Shown piece by piece: positions 56,363 to 62,564 of a DNA stretch of 62,785 bases. The stretch is from Prevotella sp. (lineage in GTDB: Bacteria > Bacteroidota > Bacteroidia > Bacteroidales > Bacteroidaceae). The notes beneath the pieces were generated by a model. That model saw only the letters and a list, made by a program, of their open reading frames with translations. It was not told where the DNA came from and ran no database searches. The stretch is taken from the NCBI GenBank assembly GCA_017538105.1, contig JAFYJN010000068.1, forward strand, positions 1 to 62,785, written 5' to 3'. Each line of letters starts with the position of its first letter. The first letter of the stretch is position 1. The translations under genes were made by a program, and so were the position numbers.

Positions 56363-56737
56363 TTACCATCGATATTTATCAATCATTTGTTTAAAAACAG
56401 GTTCGTCGGAAACAGAAGCAAAAAGGAGCATACAGGTACGAATCTTTAATACCCCCAAGTTACTAAATATTTCATAAATGGGTTTTTCATGATTCAGTAT
56501 AACTTGTGTCGCATTTATTAATCTTTCCTTCAAAATAGGATGATTAATATATGCAATTGCTTCTTCACGACCATTAAGACCATAAAATTCTGTTAATTTG
56601 CTTGTTCCAGATCTTTTTAATTGTGGGTAGATATATCTAACCCAACATTCAATACTGAGTTTTCCTTCTTGAATTTCTTTGATAGCCCGTTCATACATTG
56701 TATTTTGAGCTATTAAGAATCGTTCTAAACTATCCAT
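56363..56737 (-). CDS. DUF1810 family protein, copy 1
   Basis: A 124-residue protein with the DUF1810 signature: FLIAQNTMYERAIKEIQEGK, WVRYIYPQLKRSGTSKLTEF, YGLNGREEAIAYINHPILKE and a conserved end CMLLFASVSDEPVF. Usual DUF1810 has HWMWFIFPQ; here the corresponding CWVRYIYPQ is altered. The second copy at 62157-62564 keeps HWMWYVFPQ. AT-rich and diverged; the two copies are inverted relative to each other. Confidence 0.88.
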   Translation of the reverse strand: MDSLERFLIAQNTMYERAIKEIQEGKLSIECWVRYIYPQLKRSGTSKLTEFYGLNGREEAIAYINHPILKERLINATQVILNHEKPIYEIFSNLGVLKIRTCMLLFASVSDEPVFKQMIDKYRW

Positions 56738-56896: not shown

Positions 56897-56933
56897 AATG
56901 CAAATACACTACTTATTTTTTAAGGATTATAAC

Positions 56934-57068
56934 TTATATTCCACCATGAGGATAAAACGGAGAAAGTGTTTTATATTCTCCCTTACTTGTTACATCGAAA
57001 ATTACAGCGTTAGGATATTCTTTAAGAATATTCTCTAACTTACATCTTTTATTTTTTATCAGGATCAT
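56934..57068 (-). pseudogene. Truncated paralogue of the DUF6939-like gene at 57470
   Basis: 44 codons from ATG 57068: ILIKNKRCKLENILKEYPNA then VIFDVTSKGEYKTLSPFYPHGGI. They align with residues ~44-88 of the protein at 57470-58081 (SLETIREKYPDAMIIDVTSK, FSPFYPIGGIPVPF) and stop exactly after GGI, where the full protein continues for 115 residues. So this is a 3'-truncated copy or a very short relative. It overlaps the end of the gene 57049-57378 by 20 bp. Confidence 0.6.
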
Positions 57069-57469: not shown

Positions 57470-58081
57470 TTACTCTGGGTAATTACCTTCGATATACGCC
57501 TTGATGAGTGAAGCGTGTGAGAGGGGACGTTTAGCGTTGTTCACATCAGGATTGGTATTGTAGTCGAGCAGCACCACGGGTCTGTTTTTTGAAATGACAC
57601 GTACGGCAACGACCAATTTCTGGAGTTTGTTCTCCAACACCCATTTGTAACAGGGCAGATAGATGAGTTTGCGGGCCTCGACATAACCGAGCAGTTCTTC
57701 GCCATCCACCCCCTTGCGGTGACCAAGACACGGACCAAATTTTCTGACTGTGCGTTTCATGTTTTTCATGTCGGTCTTCGAAAACATGTGGGGATCAACA
57801 TCGGCATCTTCAAACACCTTCAATCCCTGCCAGATGCCCTCAACGGAAACAGCGATAGTGTCGGAGAAGGGCACAGGAATTCCACCAATGGGATAGAAGG
57901 GACTGAACTTGACAAACTCATTCTGTGCCTTGCTCGTCACGTCGATAATCATGGCATCAGGATACTTTTCACGGATGGTCTCCAAACTCTTCTTTTTGGA
58001 TTCAATGTAAATCATAGGCTTTGTTTTCGAGTCCGCGACAAAAATACCATTTTTTTCTGAATAAACATTGATTTTCATCAT
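57470..58081 (-). CDS. DUF6939-like protein
   Basis: A ~203-residue soluble protein: IDVTSKAQNEFVKFSPFYPI, GGIPVPFSDTIAVSVEGIWQ, GLKVFEDADVDPHMFSK and RKFGPCLGHRKGVDGEELLG. I associate SVEGIWQGLKVFE with the DUF6939 family but from memory only; the fold and role are unknown. Two adjacent ATGs (58081, 58078) are both possible starts. Its truncated relative lies 400 bp downstream. Transcribed away from the sigma-like gene at 58340. Confidence 0.65.
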   Translation of the reverse strand: MMKINVYSEKNGIFVADSKTKPMIYIESKKKSLETIREKYPDAMIIDVTSKAQNEFVKFSPFYPIGGIPVPFSDTIAVSVEGIWQGLKVFEDADVDPHMFSKTDMKNMKRTVRKFGPCLGHRKGVDGEELLGYVEARKLIYLPCYKWVLENKLQKLVVAVRVISKNRPVVLLDYNTNPDVNNAKRPLSHASLIKAYIEGNYPE

Positions 58082-58275
58082 ACAACAACAACTTTTTAAT
58101 TTTTTACCCAATAGCAGGCATATATTATTGCCAAATAACTTCAAAAGGTAATCATAGAATAGGGGATTTTTTTAAAATATTATCGAATTAATATCAGTCA
58201 GAGGGCCTCCGAACAGCATTTTTGTGTATTATTCGTACAAAAATCACTATATTTTGTACATCAGACGTTAAAAAT

Positions 58276-58307
58276 TTGTTTTTTTAATAAAATTGGTATT
58301 ATATTTG
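58276..58307 (+). promoter_or_regulatory. Promoter of the sigma-like gene
   Basis: TTG 58276-58278, 21 bp, TATATTTG 58300-58307, then CAG. A palindrome (58310-58324) begins 3 bp after it, at the probable transcription start. Confidence 0.75.
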
Positions 58308-58309
58308 CA

Positions 58310-58324
58310 GCGTAATTTTTACGC
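58310..58324. promoter_or_regulatory. Operator-like palindrome, site 1
   Basis: GCGTAA-TTT-TTACGC, perfect dyad of 6+3+6, placed directly after the -7 box. Sites with the same half-site and spacing occur at 59090-59104 and 59143-59157. Confidence 0.6.
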
Positions 58325-58339
58325 AATAAATTAGGGAGT

Positions 58340-59002
58340 ATGATAGTAGGAATTAAAGTAAGTGGTTTTGATGAAATGAAAAAGTTGTCTCTGAAGGAAG
58401 AAAAGAGAGGACTTCTTGTTGTGGGTAATCATTTTTTTAATAAAGTGGTTATTGAGGAAAGGGAGAATGTGTTGTTGAGGTTGATGGGTAAGTTTAGGGG
58501 TTTGAGGTATGAGGATTTGGAGGAGATTTATGATGATGGGTGTTTGGTGTTGTGGGAGAAAATGAAGGATAAGGAGTTTAAGTTGAAGGAGAAAAGTATG
58601 GTTGGTTATTTGGTGAGTATTTGTAAGAATATTGGGATGCATTATTTGAGGAAGGTGAATGAGGATGTGTTGAGTCTGGAAAAGATTTTGGAAAGAGGTT
58701 TTGAGGGTGTAGTCGATGAGGGTAGTGGTTTGGTTGAGGTGTTTGATGTGTTGGATGAGAGAGGTAATGAAAATGAGAAGTATGAAAAGTTGGATAAGGT
58801 TTGGGGACGATTGAAAGATGTGGATAAGATGATTTTGGAGAGTTATTATGTTGATGGTTGTAAGATGGAAGAGATTGCGAAGAGGATAGGGTATAAGAAT
58901 GGAAATAGTGTGAAGAGTAAGAAGAATAAAGTGTTGAAGAAAATGATGACCATGATGATGGAAAGAGAGTCGGATTTTAAAGATGTGCTTTTTGCCGCAT
59001 AA
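58340..59002 (+). CDS. Sigma-70-like (ECF-type) RNA polymerase sigma factor with extreme cytosine depletion
   Basis: A 220-residue protein in the order of a small sigma factor: region-2-like LRYEDLEEIYDDGCLVLWEK and SMVGYLVSICKNIGMHYLRK, then region-4-like HTH KLDKVWGRLKDVDKMILESY, YVDGCKMEEIAKRIGYKNGN, SVKSKKNKVLKKM. The codon use is very unusual: Leu almost only TTG, Arg AGG, Val GTG/GTT, Gly GGT/GGG. By hand count the coding strand has about 17 C in 663 bases, with long stretches (for example 58450-58630) almost free of C. Neighbours do not show this. The sigma call rests on layout and HTH; a general DNA-binding protein is possible. Confidence 0.75.
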   Translation: MIVGIKVSGFDEMKKLSLKEEKRGLLVVGNHFFNKVVIEERENVLLRLMGKFRGLRYEDLEEIYDDGCLVLWEKMKDKEFKLKEKSMVGYLVSICKNIGMHYLRKVNEDVLSLEKILERGFEGVVDEGSGLVEVFDVLDERGNENEKYEKLDKVWGRLKDVDKMILESYYVDGCKMEEIAKRIGYKNGNSVKSKKNKVLKKMMTMMMERESDFKDVLFAA

Positions 59003-59089
59003 TATTTAGTGTTATGGCAAAAGCCGTAGCTCTGCCATCATGTCAGTTGGCAGCGATATGGCAGAAAATTCTTCATAGAAAGCCAAGTT

Positions 59090-59104
59090 GCGTTGAAATT
59101 ACGC
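59090..59104. promoter_or_regulatory. Operator-like palindrome, site 2
   Basis: GCGTTG-AAA-TTACGC: one half-site identical to site 1, the other with two changes, same 3-bp spacer. Upstream of the gene at 59238. Confidence 0.45.
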
Positions 59105-59126
59105 GTCAAAATGGCACAAAATACTA

Positions 59127-59141
59127 TGGCACAATATTTGT
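59127..59141 (+). promoter_or_regulatory. Candidate promoter of gene 59238 (sigma-54-like or primary type)
   Basis: TGGCAC-N5-TTGT resembles the sigma-54 -24/-12 pattern (TGGCAC-N5-TTGC) with one change in the -12 part. The same stretch also contains AATATTTG (59133-59140), one mismatch from TAnnTTTG. It is flanked by palindrome sites 2 and 3. Confidence 0.35.
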
Positions 59142-59142
59142 T

Positions 59143-59157
59143 GTGTTATAATTACGC
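59143..59157. promoter_or_regulatory. Operator-like palindrome, site 3
   Basis: GTGTTA-TAA-TTACGC: right half-site identical, left half-site with two changes, same spacer as site 1. Directly downstream of the candidate promoter box. Confidence 0.4.
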
Positions 59158-59237
59158 AACGTCTATTCTTTGATAAATTGATTTTATTATTGGATTTGAC
59201 ATGGTGTAAATGAATAATAAACCTTTAAAAAAATAAA

Positions 59238-59657
59238 ATGAATTACACAGTTTCAGATTTGCTCTCCGGAGCTAAAGTTATGTCGAAGAGTGTTTTCGGA
59301 AAGAAGGAAGAGTATCAACTGAAGTTCAATCATGAAGAGGATGGGCTTTGGTATGTAGACTTTCCTAACTGGCCGTTTGACCATCATAATTTGTTGATGG
59401 TGGCAGGAGCCGATGAATTATGTGCCTTCTTGTCGGATGATGATAAAGAGACCAATGTGTTTGTCCGTCCATCGAAAGAGAAATTGGAACTGGATGGATA
59501 TGCCGAACTGGTTCAAAAAGAACATTCGCTTACAGGTGGATCTGTCTATGAGGTACGTAACCTGGACGGCTTTAATCGCGAAATATGGCTTTGTCCGGTA
59601 ACACTGTTTGTCCTGGGAAAGTATCCTAAGTACATGTACATAAAGAAAGTGTCCTAA
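59238..59657 (+). CDS. Hypothetical protein (DUF6717-like pattern)
   Basis: A 139-residue soluble protein. GLWYVDFPNWPFDHHNLLMVAG then ADELCAFLSDDD recalls a small Bacteroidota family I think is DUF6717 (W-x-x-DxPxW ... LxMVxGADxL), but this is from memory. Its 235-bp upstream region contains two palindromes like the one in front of the sigma-like gene, so the two may be co-regulated. A terminator follows. Confidence 0.65.
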   Translation: MNYTVSDLLSGAKVMSKSVFGKKEEYQLKFNHEEDGLWYVDFPNWPFDHHNLLMVAGADELCAFLSDDDKETNVFVRPSKEKLELDGYAELVQKEHSLTGGSVYEVRNLDGFNREIWLCPVTLFVLGKYPKYMYIKKVS

Positions 59658-61418: not shown

Positions 61419-61699
61419 AGCCGCATTGTGAAGAATTCAAGTTATTTGTGTGATGATCGGTATTTCTGAAGCCATGTCGCTTCGACATAATCATTTAAGT
61501 AAATAATACAAAAAGAATCTAAATGCTGATAATTAGTATTTCTATTTTAGCAATCTGTCCAATAAAAGTTGATTAATCGGTCTTTGAAATAATTGAATTA
61601 CAGTCTGTTATGCAGGTTCTTGAAATGAAACGGACTTGATTTTGTAACTTTTTTTATTGTTTAATCGTCTAATATTATGTTTAACCAAATAATCAATAT
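61419..61699. other. Gene-free AT-rich gap
   Basis: About 280 bp between the radical SAM fragment and the next gene. No coding frame, repeat or strong promoter; TATGTTTA at 61676-61683 is a weak -7 candidate for the gene at 61700. Confidence 0.5.
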
Positions 61700-62179
61700 A
61701 TGAAAAAAAGAAAAAAGTATAAAATGATTGAAGAATATTGGAATGATAAAAATTCGGATTTATTTTATAATAATAAAGAATTTGATTTTATTGAATCAAT
61801 TCCAAGAACTATGCTTTTCAAACCACATTGGCCTAAAGGTTGGGTTTATTGGGACAAAGAGTATCTTGATGAAGAAATAGAATCTTATTTTCCTCTTATT
61901 GGAAAAAGGAAAGGATTAAAGGATCTTGAATCATTGAAACGTTATATAAATTTTCCTGTAAATAGAATTTTATTTATAAATAATGCAAGATGTCTATATA
62001 ATGATACTCCTTATAACGGTCATTTTGATGAATATCAAATAGCATGGTTACGTAAAGCAATGCAAACTTATGCCAAAATTGCCGATGATCCAATTTATCA
62101 AGAAGTTCTCGATAAATATGGTTGGAACGAACCAGAAATAAAAGACAAAGAAAAAAATGATACAAGCCAAACAACGTAA
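61700..62179 (+). CDS. Hypothetical protein, island gene
   Basis: A 159-residue protein, very AT-rich at the DNA level, with Lys/Asn/Ile-rich sequence: a basic start (MKKRKKYKMIEEYWNDK), FDFIESIPRTMLFKPHWPKG, and DEYQIAWLRKAMQTYAKIAD. No family recognised. It overlaps the DUF1810 gene downstream by 23 bp, so those two are coupled. Confidence 0.6.
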   Translation: MKKRKKYKMIEEYWNDKNSDLFYNNKEFDFIESIPRTMLFKPHWPKGWVYWDKEYLDEEIESYFPLIGKRKGLKDLESLKRYINFPVNRILFINNARCLYNDTPYNGHFDEYQIAWLRKAMQTYAKIADDPIYQEVLDKYGWNEPEIKDKEKNDTSQTT

Positions 62180-62564
62180 TCTTCTACGGTTTGTACATGC
62201 TCAAGATAGTGGTGGTATCTATGACGATACCGCCACTTATGAGCAAGCACTTAAAGAAGTGAAAGCTGGTCGTAAGCAAACCCACTGGATGTGGTACGTA
62301 TTTCCGCAGATGAAAGGTTTGGGGCATAGCGAGATTGCCAACTTCTATGGAATCAATGGACGAGAAGAAGCCTATGCCTATATTGCCAACCCCATCCTAC
62401 GAGAACGACTAGTGGAGATTTCCGAAGCTGTGCTTAATAATGAACACTCTGCTTATGCCATTTTTGGTGATGACATAATAAAGTTCCGAGCATGTATGCT
62501 TCTTTTCGCTTCTGTCTCTGATGAACCTGTGTTTCAACAAATTATTAGTAAATATCGATGGTAA
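62157..62564 (+). CDS. DUF1810 family protein, copy 2
   Basis: A 135-residue protein with complete DUF1810 features: LLRFVHAQDSGGIYDD, ALKEVKAGRKQTHWMWYVFP, QMKGLGHSEIANFYGINGRE and the end CMLLFASVSDEPVFQQII. It matches copy 1 (56363-56737) most strongly over the last 60 residues; copy 2 has the canonical HWMWYVFPQ. The base composition is higher in GC than copy 1, so copy 1 may be older or from another source. Followed by the same hairpin pair as copy 1. Confidence 0.9.
   Translation: MIQAKQRNLLRFVHAQDSGGIYDDTATYEQALKEVKAGRKQTHWMWYVFPQMKGLGHSEIANFYGINGREEAYAYIANPILRERLVEISEAVLNNEHSAYAIFGDDIIKFRACMLLFASVSDEPVFQQIISKYRW

Follow-up and report, generated by a model that had tools for sequence, protein, structure and literature searches.

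Selection, not mutation, keeps cytosine off the coding strand, and with it guanine off the template strand, in a gene for a predicted ECF-like sigma factor of Prevotella-type bacteria; the exceptions are short hairpins located towards the two ends of the gene. The gene (58340–59002, forward strand, 663 nt, 220 aa) lies on a contig of 62,785 nucleotides, the whole of which we call the window. It contains 212 A, 17 C, 227 G, and 207 T, that is, 2.6% C; the window as a whole has 23.7% C. The exact count agrees with the hand count of the initial annotation, which had put about 17 C (2.6%) in the 663 bases and had noticed their clustering at the start and the end of the gene. The clustering is confirmed by the positions, which are 58389, 58391, 58412, 58415, 58430, 58640, 58676, 58714, 58808, 58878, 58950, 58951, 58971, 58988, 58995, 58996, and 58998. 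The body of the gene (58431–58949, forward strand) thus has 5 C in 519 nt, and its template strand is nearly without G. It also holds that leucine is encoded by TTG and arginine by AGG (AGG or AGA for the latter). In the 400-base windows listed, C elsewhere is at least 9.25%, with the lowest value at 61601. In a set of 251 ORFs of at least 100 aa from the same genome, called mechanically in the window and 14 further stretches (310,799 bases), no ORF apart from the sigma factor gene (2.6% C) falls below 11.25%. Its neighbours have an ordinary composition, in agreement with the earlier proposal that the gene shows a strong strand asymmetry and more than a low GC content.

The sigma factor and its family

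The product is a predicted ECF-like sigma factor, as the initial call of a sigma-like gene had it. It passes the cut-off of the NCBIfam profile TIGR02937 (53.8 bits, for a cut-off of 42.9), and it misses the gathering score of 25.7 of the Pfam profiles Sigma70_r2 and r4 (best 16.8 bits). The top Foldseek matches of the predicted structure (pLDDT 61) are sigma factors by title. Two of them have E ≤0.001 (best 6.1e-4), with whole-chain TM scores of 0.2–0.4, and region 4 alone reaches a TM score of 0.86 with 3hug_K. Searches by sequence for solved relatives in the sigma family gave none at E 0.001. The protein resembles the ECF/sigma-70 family (TIGR02937) in regions 2 and 4, length, and fold, but differs from it by the C-poor gene, a linker modelled with low confidence (106–142), an ssrA-like C-terminus, and the lack of any neighbour that Pfam identifies as an anti-sigma factor. 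The C-terminal tail (58979–59002, forward strand) ends with FAA, and 23 of the 27 full-length members of the family end with AA or VA. This tail, a putative ClpXP degron, resembles the tag GNNSYALAA encoded by the tmRNA of the window genome.

Some match to the gene is present in 24 of 149 related genomes, and 7 of the 149 (window genome included), all from one genus, carry an orthologue, with 55–77% identity for those other than the window's own. A scan of GTDB genomes provided 30 relatives with 55–75% protein identity, among which the six orthologues of the 149-genome search (L002–L007) recur. By their labels, 25 of these relatives are Prevotella or Prevotellaceae, and 5 are Porphyromonadaceae, Bacteroidaceae, Bacteroidales, or Bacteroidetes. 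Rumen or omasum is named as the source of 7, and two carry neither a metagenomic nor an uncultured label: P. ruminicola KHT3 (L031) and Prevotella sp. P5-92 (L039). We found no viral relative in IMG/VR (viral_contigs) and rejected a viral origin on this basis.

The depletion is a trait of this family, so a local accident, which had been considered at the outset, is no longer tenable. Among the 30 members measured (at least 300 nt, window included), 28 have at most 6% C, the exceptions being L049 (8.3%) and L040 (12.0%); the shorter L060 has 4.7% C over its match. None of the 417 other ORFs of at least 300 nt in these loci falls below 11.1% C, and their GC skew is 0.03 ± 0.09 (maximum 0.42), against 0.49–0.88 in the family. 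Among 23 distant sigma factor relatives (L008–L030, 23–35% identity), 22 have 11.6–29.8% C over the match, and the nearest homologue outside the genus (L067, in a search of 393 genomes) has an ordinary 23%. One distant relative, L017 (in G139, with the match on the minus strand), has 5.7% C over the match, 6.8% over the whole frame, and a skew of 0.41. It lies in an AT-rich genome, with 12.3% C in the flanks, and is possibly a milder case of the same asymmetry, part of which may therefore predate the C-poor sigma factor family or be more widespread than it.

Codon usage and hairpins in the coding region

Across 25 members, excluding L040 and L049, the body holds 152 C that could be avoided with the protein unchanged, whereas the codon usage of the background would lead to 1,815. 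The amino acids of the family follow: proline is absent, and glutamine, threonine, alanine, and histidine are rare. A strand-specific C-to-T mutation of the coding strand, by a deaminase or through R-loops, would account for a base almost missing from one strand only, and mutation of the C-to-U type was among the causes put forward initially. It is contradicted by the codons. The frequency of T in third position is 0.18 for valine, 0.35 for glycine, and 0.53 for isoleucine, when one predicts 0.43, 0.64, and 0.78 if C mutated to T, and 0.23, 0.42, and 0.56 if C was simply left out. The share of C at these codons has passed to all the other bases. Valine codons end with G at a frequency of 0.72, against 0.55 predicted by the omission of C, and G is enriched over A at lysine, leucine, valine, and glutamate codons. 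Furthermore, the leucine codons CTT and CTG are retained within a hairpin of the depleted gene (H1, below), the composition is normal again at the end of the ORF, and the deaminase that the initial annotation had advised to look for nearby is absent from the 29 neighbour proteins scanned with Pfam. We rejected C-to-T mutation on the data for valine, glycine, and isoleucine and regard it as highly improbable. The origin of the gene in a host with a biased composition, also suggested initially, is at odds with the ordinary neighbours and with the absence of correlation between the C content of the gene and the GC content of the flanks (39.5–57.3%; Spearman rho 0.18, p 0.36, 27 members). Synonymous A/G differences among members are plentiful.

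The ratio of observed to expected C per block of codons is mostly 0.00–0.20 in the family. It is raised near the needed His101 (0.35) and Ala180 (0.34), is 0.48–0.64 at codons 16–31, and takes the values 0.37, 0.52, and 1.10 in the final three blocks, from codon 200. The C-bearing patches fold as three hairpins that account for most of the C left in the gene, and such interruptions of the depletion again contradict a C-to-T mutation. Most members thus use C for hairpins towards the ends and shun it between them. In H1 (58381–58415, forward strand, codons 14–26), 92.6% of the cells of an alignment of 22 sequences are paired and 5 pairs have changed on both sides, whereas slid controls, which were computed on H1 plus a misplaced H2, pair at 47–64%. 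This alignment omitted the truncated records and five members in which the hairpin is weaker (L044, L046, L047, L050, and L058, where 33 of 55 pairs form). H2 (58428–58446, forward strand) is weaker than H1, with 81.6% of cells paired against 29.9–66.7% in slid controls and weak covariation. H3 (58964–58993, forward strand), at the 3′ end of the ORF, is imperfect in the window copy and stronger in most of the relatives folded. Over 25 sequences, with L053, L055, L059, and truncated records omitted, 82.7% of its cells are paired, 8 pairs show double changes, and slid controls pair at 40–59%. Neither the tail nor H3 is present in L053 and L059, and L055 has a different hairpin in the same place.

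Selection against mRNA structure, which had also been proposed, is not supported for the body of the gene. In six members, the minimum free energy (MFE) of a 300-nt stretch of the body lies between about −27 and −33 kcal/mol, whereas recodings with normal codons average −64 to −85. Compared with the mean of minimum-C recodings, however, all six native stretches have slightly more structure (by no more than about one standard deviation in two members), and minimal structure as the target of selection is therefore unsupported. We also rejected the avoidance of unpaired C alone, because the residual C is paired no more than in synonymous shuffles (mean z of 0.3 overall and 0.0 in the body, with 12 shuffles each). 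This is expected, since predictions for an RNA with much G and little C provide most C with a G to pair with. In summary, the initial reading of a sigma-like gene with a strand asymmetry beyond low GC stands, whereas none of its three causes is supported. What remains is selection on C, or on template G, in one gene.

Operator, putative regulator, and neighbours

Upstream of the gene, a TTTG (58275–58278) and a TATATTTG (58300–58307) separated by 21 bp make up what we take, from the consensus for Bacteroidetes, to be a promoter of that type (58275–58307, forward strand). The TANNTTTG box was found in all 16 aligned upstream sequences, with a palindrome directly after it. In the window, this palindromic operator, CAGCGTAATTTTTACGCAA (58308–58326), abuts the −7 box; its general form is TTGCGTAA-N3-TTACGCAA. 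The operator precedes the sigma factor gene in 22 of 31 loci (at most 4 mismatches), and 20 of these 22 have a second copy upstream, mostly 55–56 bp away (the window has one). Among the nine other loci, L051 has no upstream DNA, and the remaining eight (L044–L049, L052, and L058) are here treated as a second group, although the tree does not resolve them as a clade. The operator is absent from this group and the neighbours are mostly other ones (those tested include peptidases M23 and C92 and LytTR), but the genes are still C-poor, which led us to reject the operator as the direct cause of the loss of C. Upstream of the sigma factor gene in L004/L058, which is devoid of the palindrome, a different inverted repeat (TATGACAAA...TTTGTCATA) stands ahead of the promoter, and another regulator may thus control the C-poor gene there.

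When at most 2 mismatches are allowed, the operator is found at only two places in the window genome: before the sigma factor gene and before a gene encoding DUF6717 (59238–59657, forward strand). The latter is preceded by a second operator pair (59088–59159), made of 59088–59106 (4 mismatches) and 59141–59159 (2 mismatches). The operator is also ahead of DUF6717 homologues, identified by eye, in G009 and G070, which makes three genomes in total. A copy with 3 mismatches lies before L066, the window genome's NrtR orthologue. An NrtR gene lies within the fetched flanks of 13 of the 31 loci; 12 of these have the operator and the thirteenth has no upstream DNA. The NrtR protein of L031 matches both the Nudix domain (PF00293, 1.4e-21) and the NrtR winged helix (PF21906, 6.6e-21). 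All four operator-bearing genomes tested encode an NrtR with 79–96% identity, whereas among three operator-less genomes tested one has an NrtR with 83% identity and two have at best 63–65%. In most loci, the sigma factor gene is part of a small regulon, and the probable regulator at its operator is an NrtR-type Nudix/winged-helix protein. The binding of this operator by NrtR and the sensing of ADP-ribose are predictions, and the ligand is uncertain because AraR, a relative of NrtR, senses arabinose (PMC4666351). As in the NrtR regulators described in the available text of that study, Nudix and winged helix are combined, a palindromic operator lies by the promoter, and an imperfect operator precedes the regulator's own gene. 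Unlike them, the regulator is here tied to a sigma factor, and its Nudix box, reported there as impaired in the NrtR of NAD metabolism, is intact in 13 out of 13 cases. In G070 (C72:6921–7693), an operator pair precedes an NrtR-like match with internal stops, a decaying copy of the regulator.

The neighbour clusters, named from the Pfam matches of representatives, include DUF6939 (20 of 31 loci), DUF1810 (17), DUF6717 (11), and ADP-ribosylglycohydrolase (6). DUF1810 genes are on both sides of the region in the window (56363–56737, reverse strand; 62157–62564, forward strand). The one solved relative of DUF1810 that we found is Rv1873 (2jek), and a role in ADP-ribose metabolism may merit a test.

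The DUF6939 gene (57470–58081, reverse strand) is divergent from the sigma factor gene. Among the 149 genomes, 15 have DUF6939 and 13 have DarT. DUF6939 is present in all seven genomes with the sigma factor and DarT in none of them; the hypergeometric probability of the co-occurrence of sigma factor and DUF6939, kinship ignored, is 2e-8, and 9e-7 within the genus. In seven of the eight other genomes with DUF6939, the coordinates place DarT directly next to it (G051 has a fragment only), and six genomes have DarT without DUF6939. The one DUF6939-adjoining DarT that was searched matched DarT1 of E. coli C7 (8baq, 6.9e-6), and no further DarT chain came up at E 10. In the one long DarT ORF scanned, the DarT domain is followed by a weak match to vWA (15.6 bits, for a cut-off of 27). 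In L103 (G004) and L104 (G044), DUF6939 comes right before a long DarT1-like ORF, apparently a toxin–antitoxin pair of the DarT–NADAR kind. DUF6939 does not reach the cut-off of 27 of the NADAR-DarT1 profile PF22397 (best 22.5 bits), but six of seven proteins match it below the cut-off (E 8.5e-5 to 0.14; no match in L104). Its structural model is weak (pLDDT 65) and had no structural match at E 0.001. Its profile retrieved only weak unrelated chains among PDB sequences; a match to 29 residues of a cytidine deaminase chain (E 0.23) was taken as chance. Constant with the sigma factor in the genomes searched and elsewhere beside DarT, DUF6939 is probably NADAR-like and a candidate guanine de-ADP-ribosylase, which would remove ADP-ribose from guanine. 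A partial second DUF6939-like match with an internal stop lies beside the intact gene (56925–57050, reverse strand).

These loci are akin to the DarT1–NADAR toxin–antitoxin systems, as presented in the available text of PMC11543638 and PMC11125620, in that DUF6939 adjoins DarT in seven genomes (DarT1-like where tested) and weakly matches the corresponding Pfam profile. They differ because the genomes with the sigma factor have an orphan DUF6939 with a sigma factor and NrtR and no DarT gene, and because the DarT ORF here continues into the region with the weak vWA match. A further analogy is the YbiA-like NADAR of E. coli K-12, encoded in a LexA-controlled operon (PMC11125620): there too, a NADAR without DarT is linked to a stress regulon, but an NrtR-type regulator and a dedicated sigma factor here replace LexA.

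Explanations for the depletion

DarT1 is described as guanine-specific on DNA and reversed by NADARs (PMC11543638), which act also on RNA guanosine (PMC11833690). A G-rich message would be a poor escape from an attack on RNA guanine; the avoidance of guanine in the template fits an attack on DNA. We tentatively favour, at somewhat less than an even chance, the possibility that a template almost without G enables RNA polymerase to pass along DNA whose guanines are ADP-ribosylated. Slightly more doubtful is the larger scenario of a lesion-proof stress sigma factor gene, transcribable despite ADP-ribosylation for want of template guanine, whose composition would be its resistance and which would be coupled to an ADP-ribose sensor together with an enzyme that removes ADP-ribose from guanine. 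In the favoured reading, a DarT1-like toxin would ADP-ribosylate guanines in the single-stranded DNA of the cell, and RNA polymerase would stall at the adducted template guanines of ordinary genes. The action of DUF6939 would liberate ADP-ribose, which would take NrtR off the operator. The sigma factor gene, with near-zero template guanine, would stay readable, and its product would steer transcription to recovery genes, until the ssrA-like tail let ClpXP end the response. We infer this purpose from the composition and the genomic context, both of which are observed. Several facts speak against the avoidance of template guanine. Equal protection would be required for the genes of DUF6939 and NrtR, yet their composition is ordinary, and the second group (eight loci with upstream DNA) is C-poor without the operator and with mostly other neighbours. 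The attacker would have to be external, since DarT is missing from the seven genomes with the sigma factor. Template G is tolerated in H1, which holds C in leucine codons where TTG is possible. The preference for G over A at lysine, leucine, valine, and glutamate codons is not predicted by this avoidance alone. Finally, our literature searches found nothing on RNA polymerase at ADP-ribosyl-guanine.

The main rival, which we consider unlikely, is that the mRNA itself is functional: stable hairpins towards its two ends (H1/H2 and H3) would enclose a long body in which G–C pairs cannot form. The message would be stable, single-stranded or protein-bound, and C would be excluded so that the body pairs neither with the hairpins nor with itself. 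The conservation of the hairpins, with compensatory changes beyond those of slid controls, is consistent with this idea, as are the maintenance of H3 with a different sequence in L052, L054, and L055, the body MFE far weaker than in normal-codon recodings, and the persistence of the trait in the group without the operator. It is harder to reconcile with native stretches slightly more structured than the mean minimum-C recoding, with the preference for G over A, and with residual C no more paired than in shuffles; moreover, the five members with a poor H1 and the two without tail and H3 are all C-poor. A direct cost of C, by a shortage of CTP, a chain-ending CTP analogue, or a C-cutting RNase or toxin, would fit a depletion that affects all codon positions and the amino acids, but is quite improbable. 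The tail and H1 carry extra, avoidable C, the neighbourhood points to ADP-ribose rather than cytidine nucleotides, and viperin is above the cut-off in none of the 149 genomes (one broken match near the cut-off is in G124, a genome without the C-poor sigma factor). The Rho factor loads on C-rich, G-poor RNA. A C-free, G-rich message would escape termination when translation stops, and its antisense RNA would be an ideal Rho site (the MFE of the antisense strand is 0 to −1.5). Rho avoidance would explain why C is lost and also why G is in excess, but the depletion is far beyond need and absent from all the others of the 251 ORFs, which makes this explanation more improbable still.

To our knowledge, no known type of constraint matches the near-removal of one base from a protein-coding gene. 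Sigma factors, NrtR, and DarT1–NADAR are known kinds of systems; as far as our literature searches go, a gene nearly purged of one base is new. The matches listed for C-free or C-less genes were unrelated work only, and there was no mention of DUF6939 or DUF6717 in the literature searched, which scarcely covers subscription journals. One base has been nearly removed by selection, at the cost of five amino acids, and this was maintained while the proteins diverged to 55% identity. Whatever the cause, this is a clean natural case of one nucleotide avoided in one gene, and the cause, once found, would expose either a new attack on C in RNA or on G in template DNA or a new function of RNA. The loci also connect a stand-alone NADAR-like enzyme to a transcriptional response, when the role of NADARs outside DarT operons is called unclear in PMC11125620.

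The trait can be lost: L040 (1979–2641) has an open frame with 12% C. Its operator and H3 are weakened, and it is nested among low-C members (fork support 97/87), so C was most likely regained. It may help to tell, as a natural case of regained C, what depends on the absence of this base.
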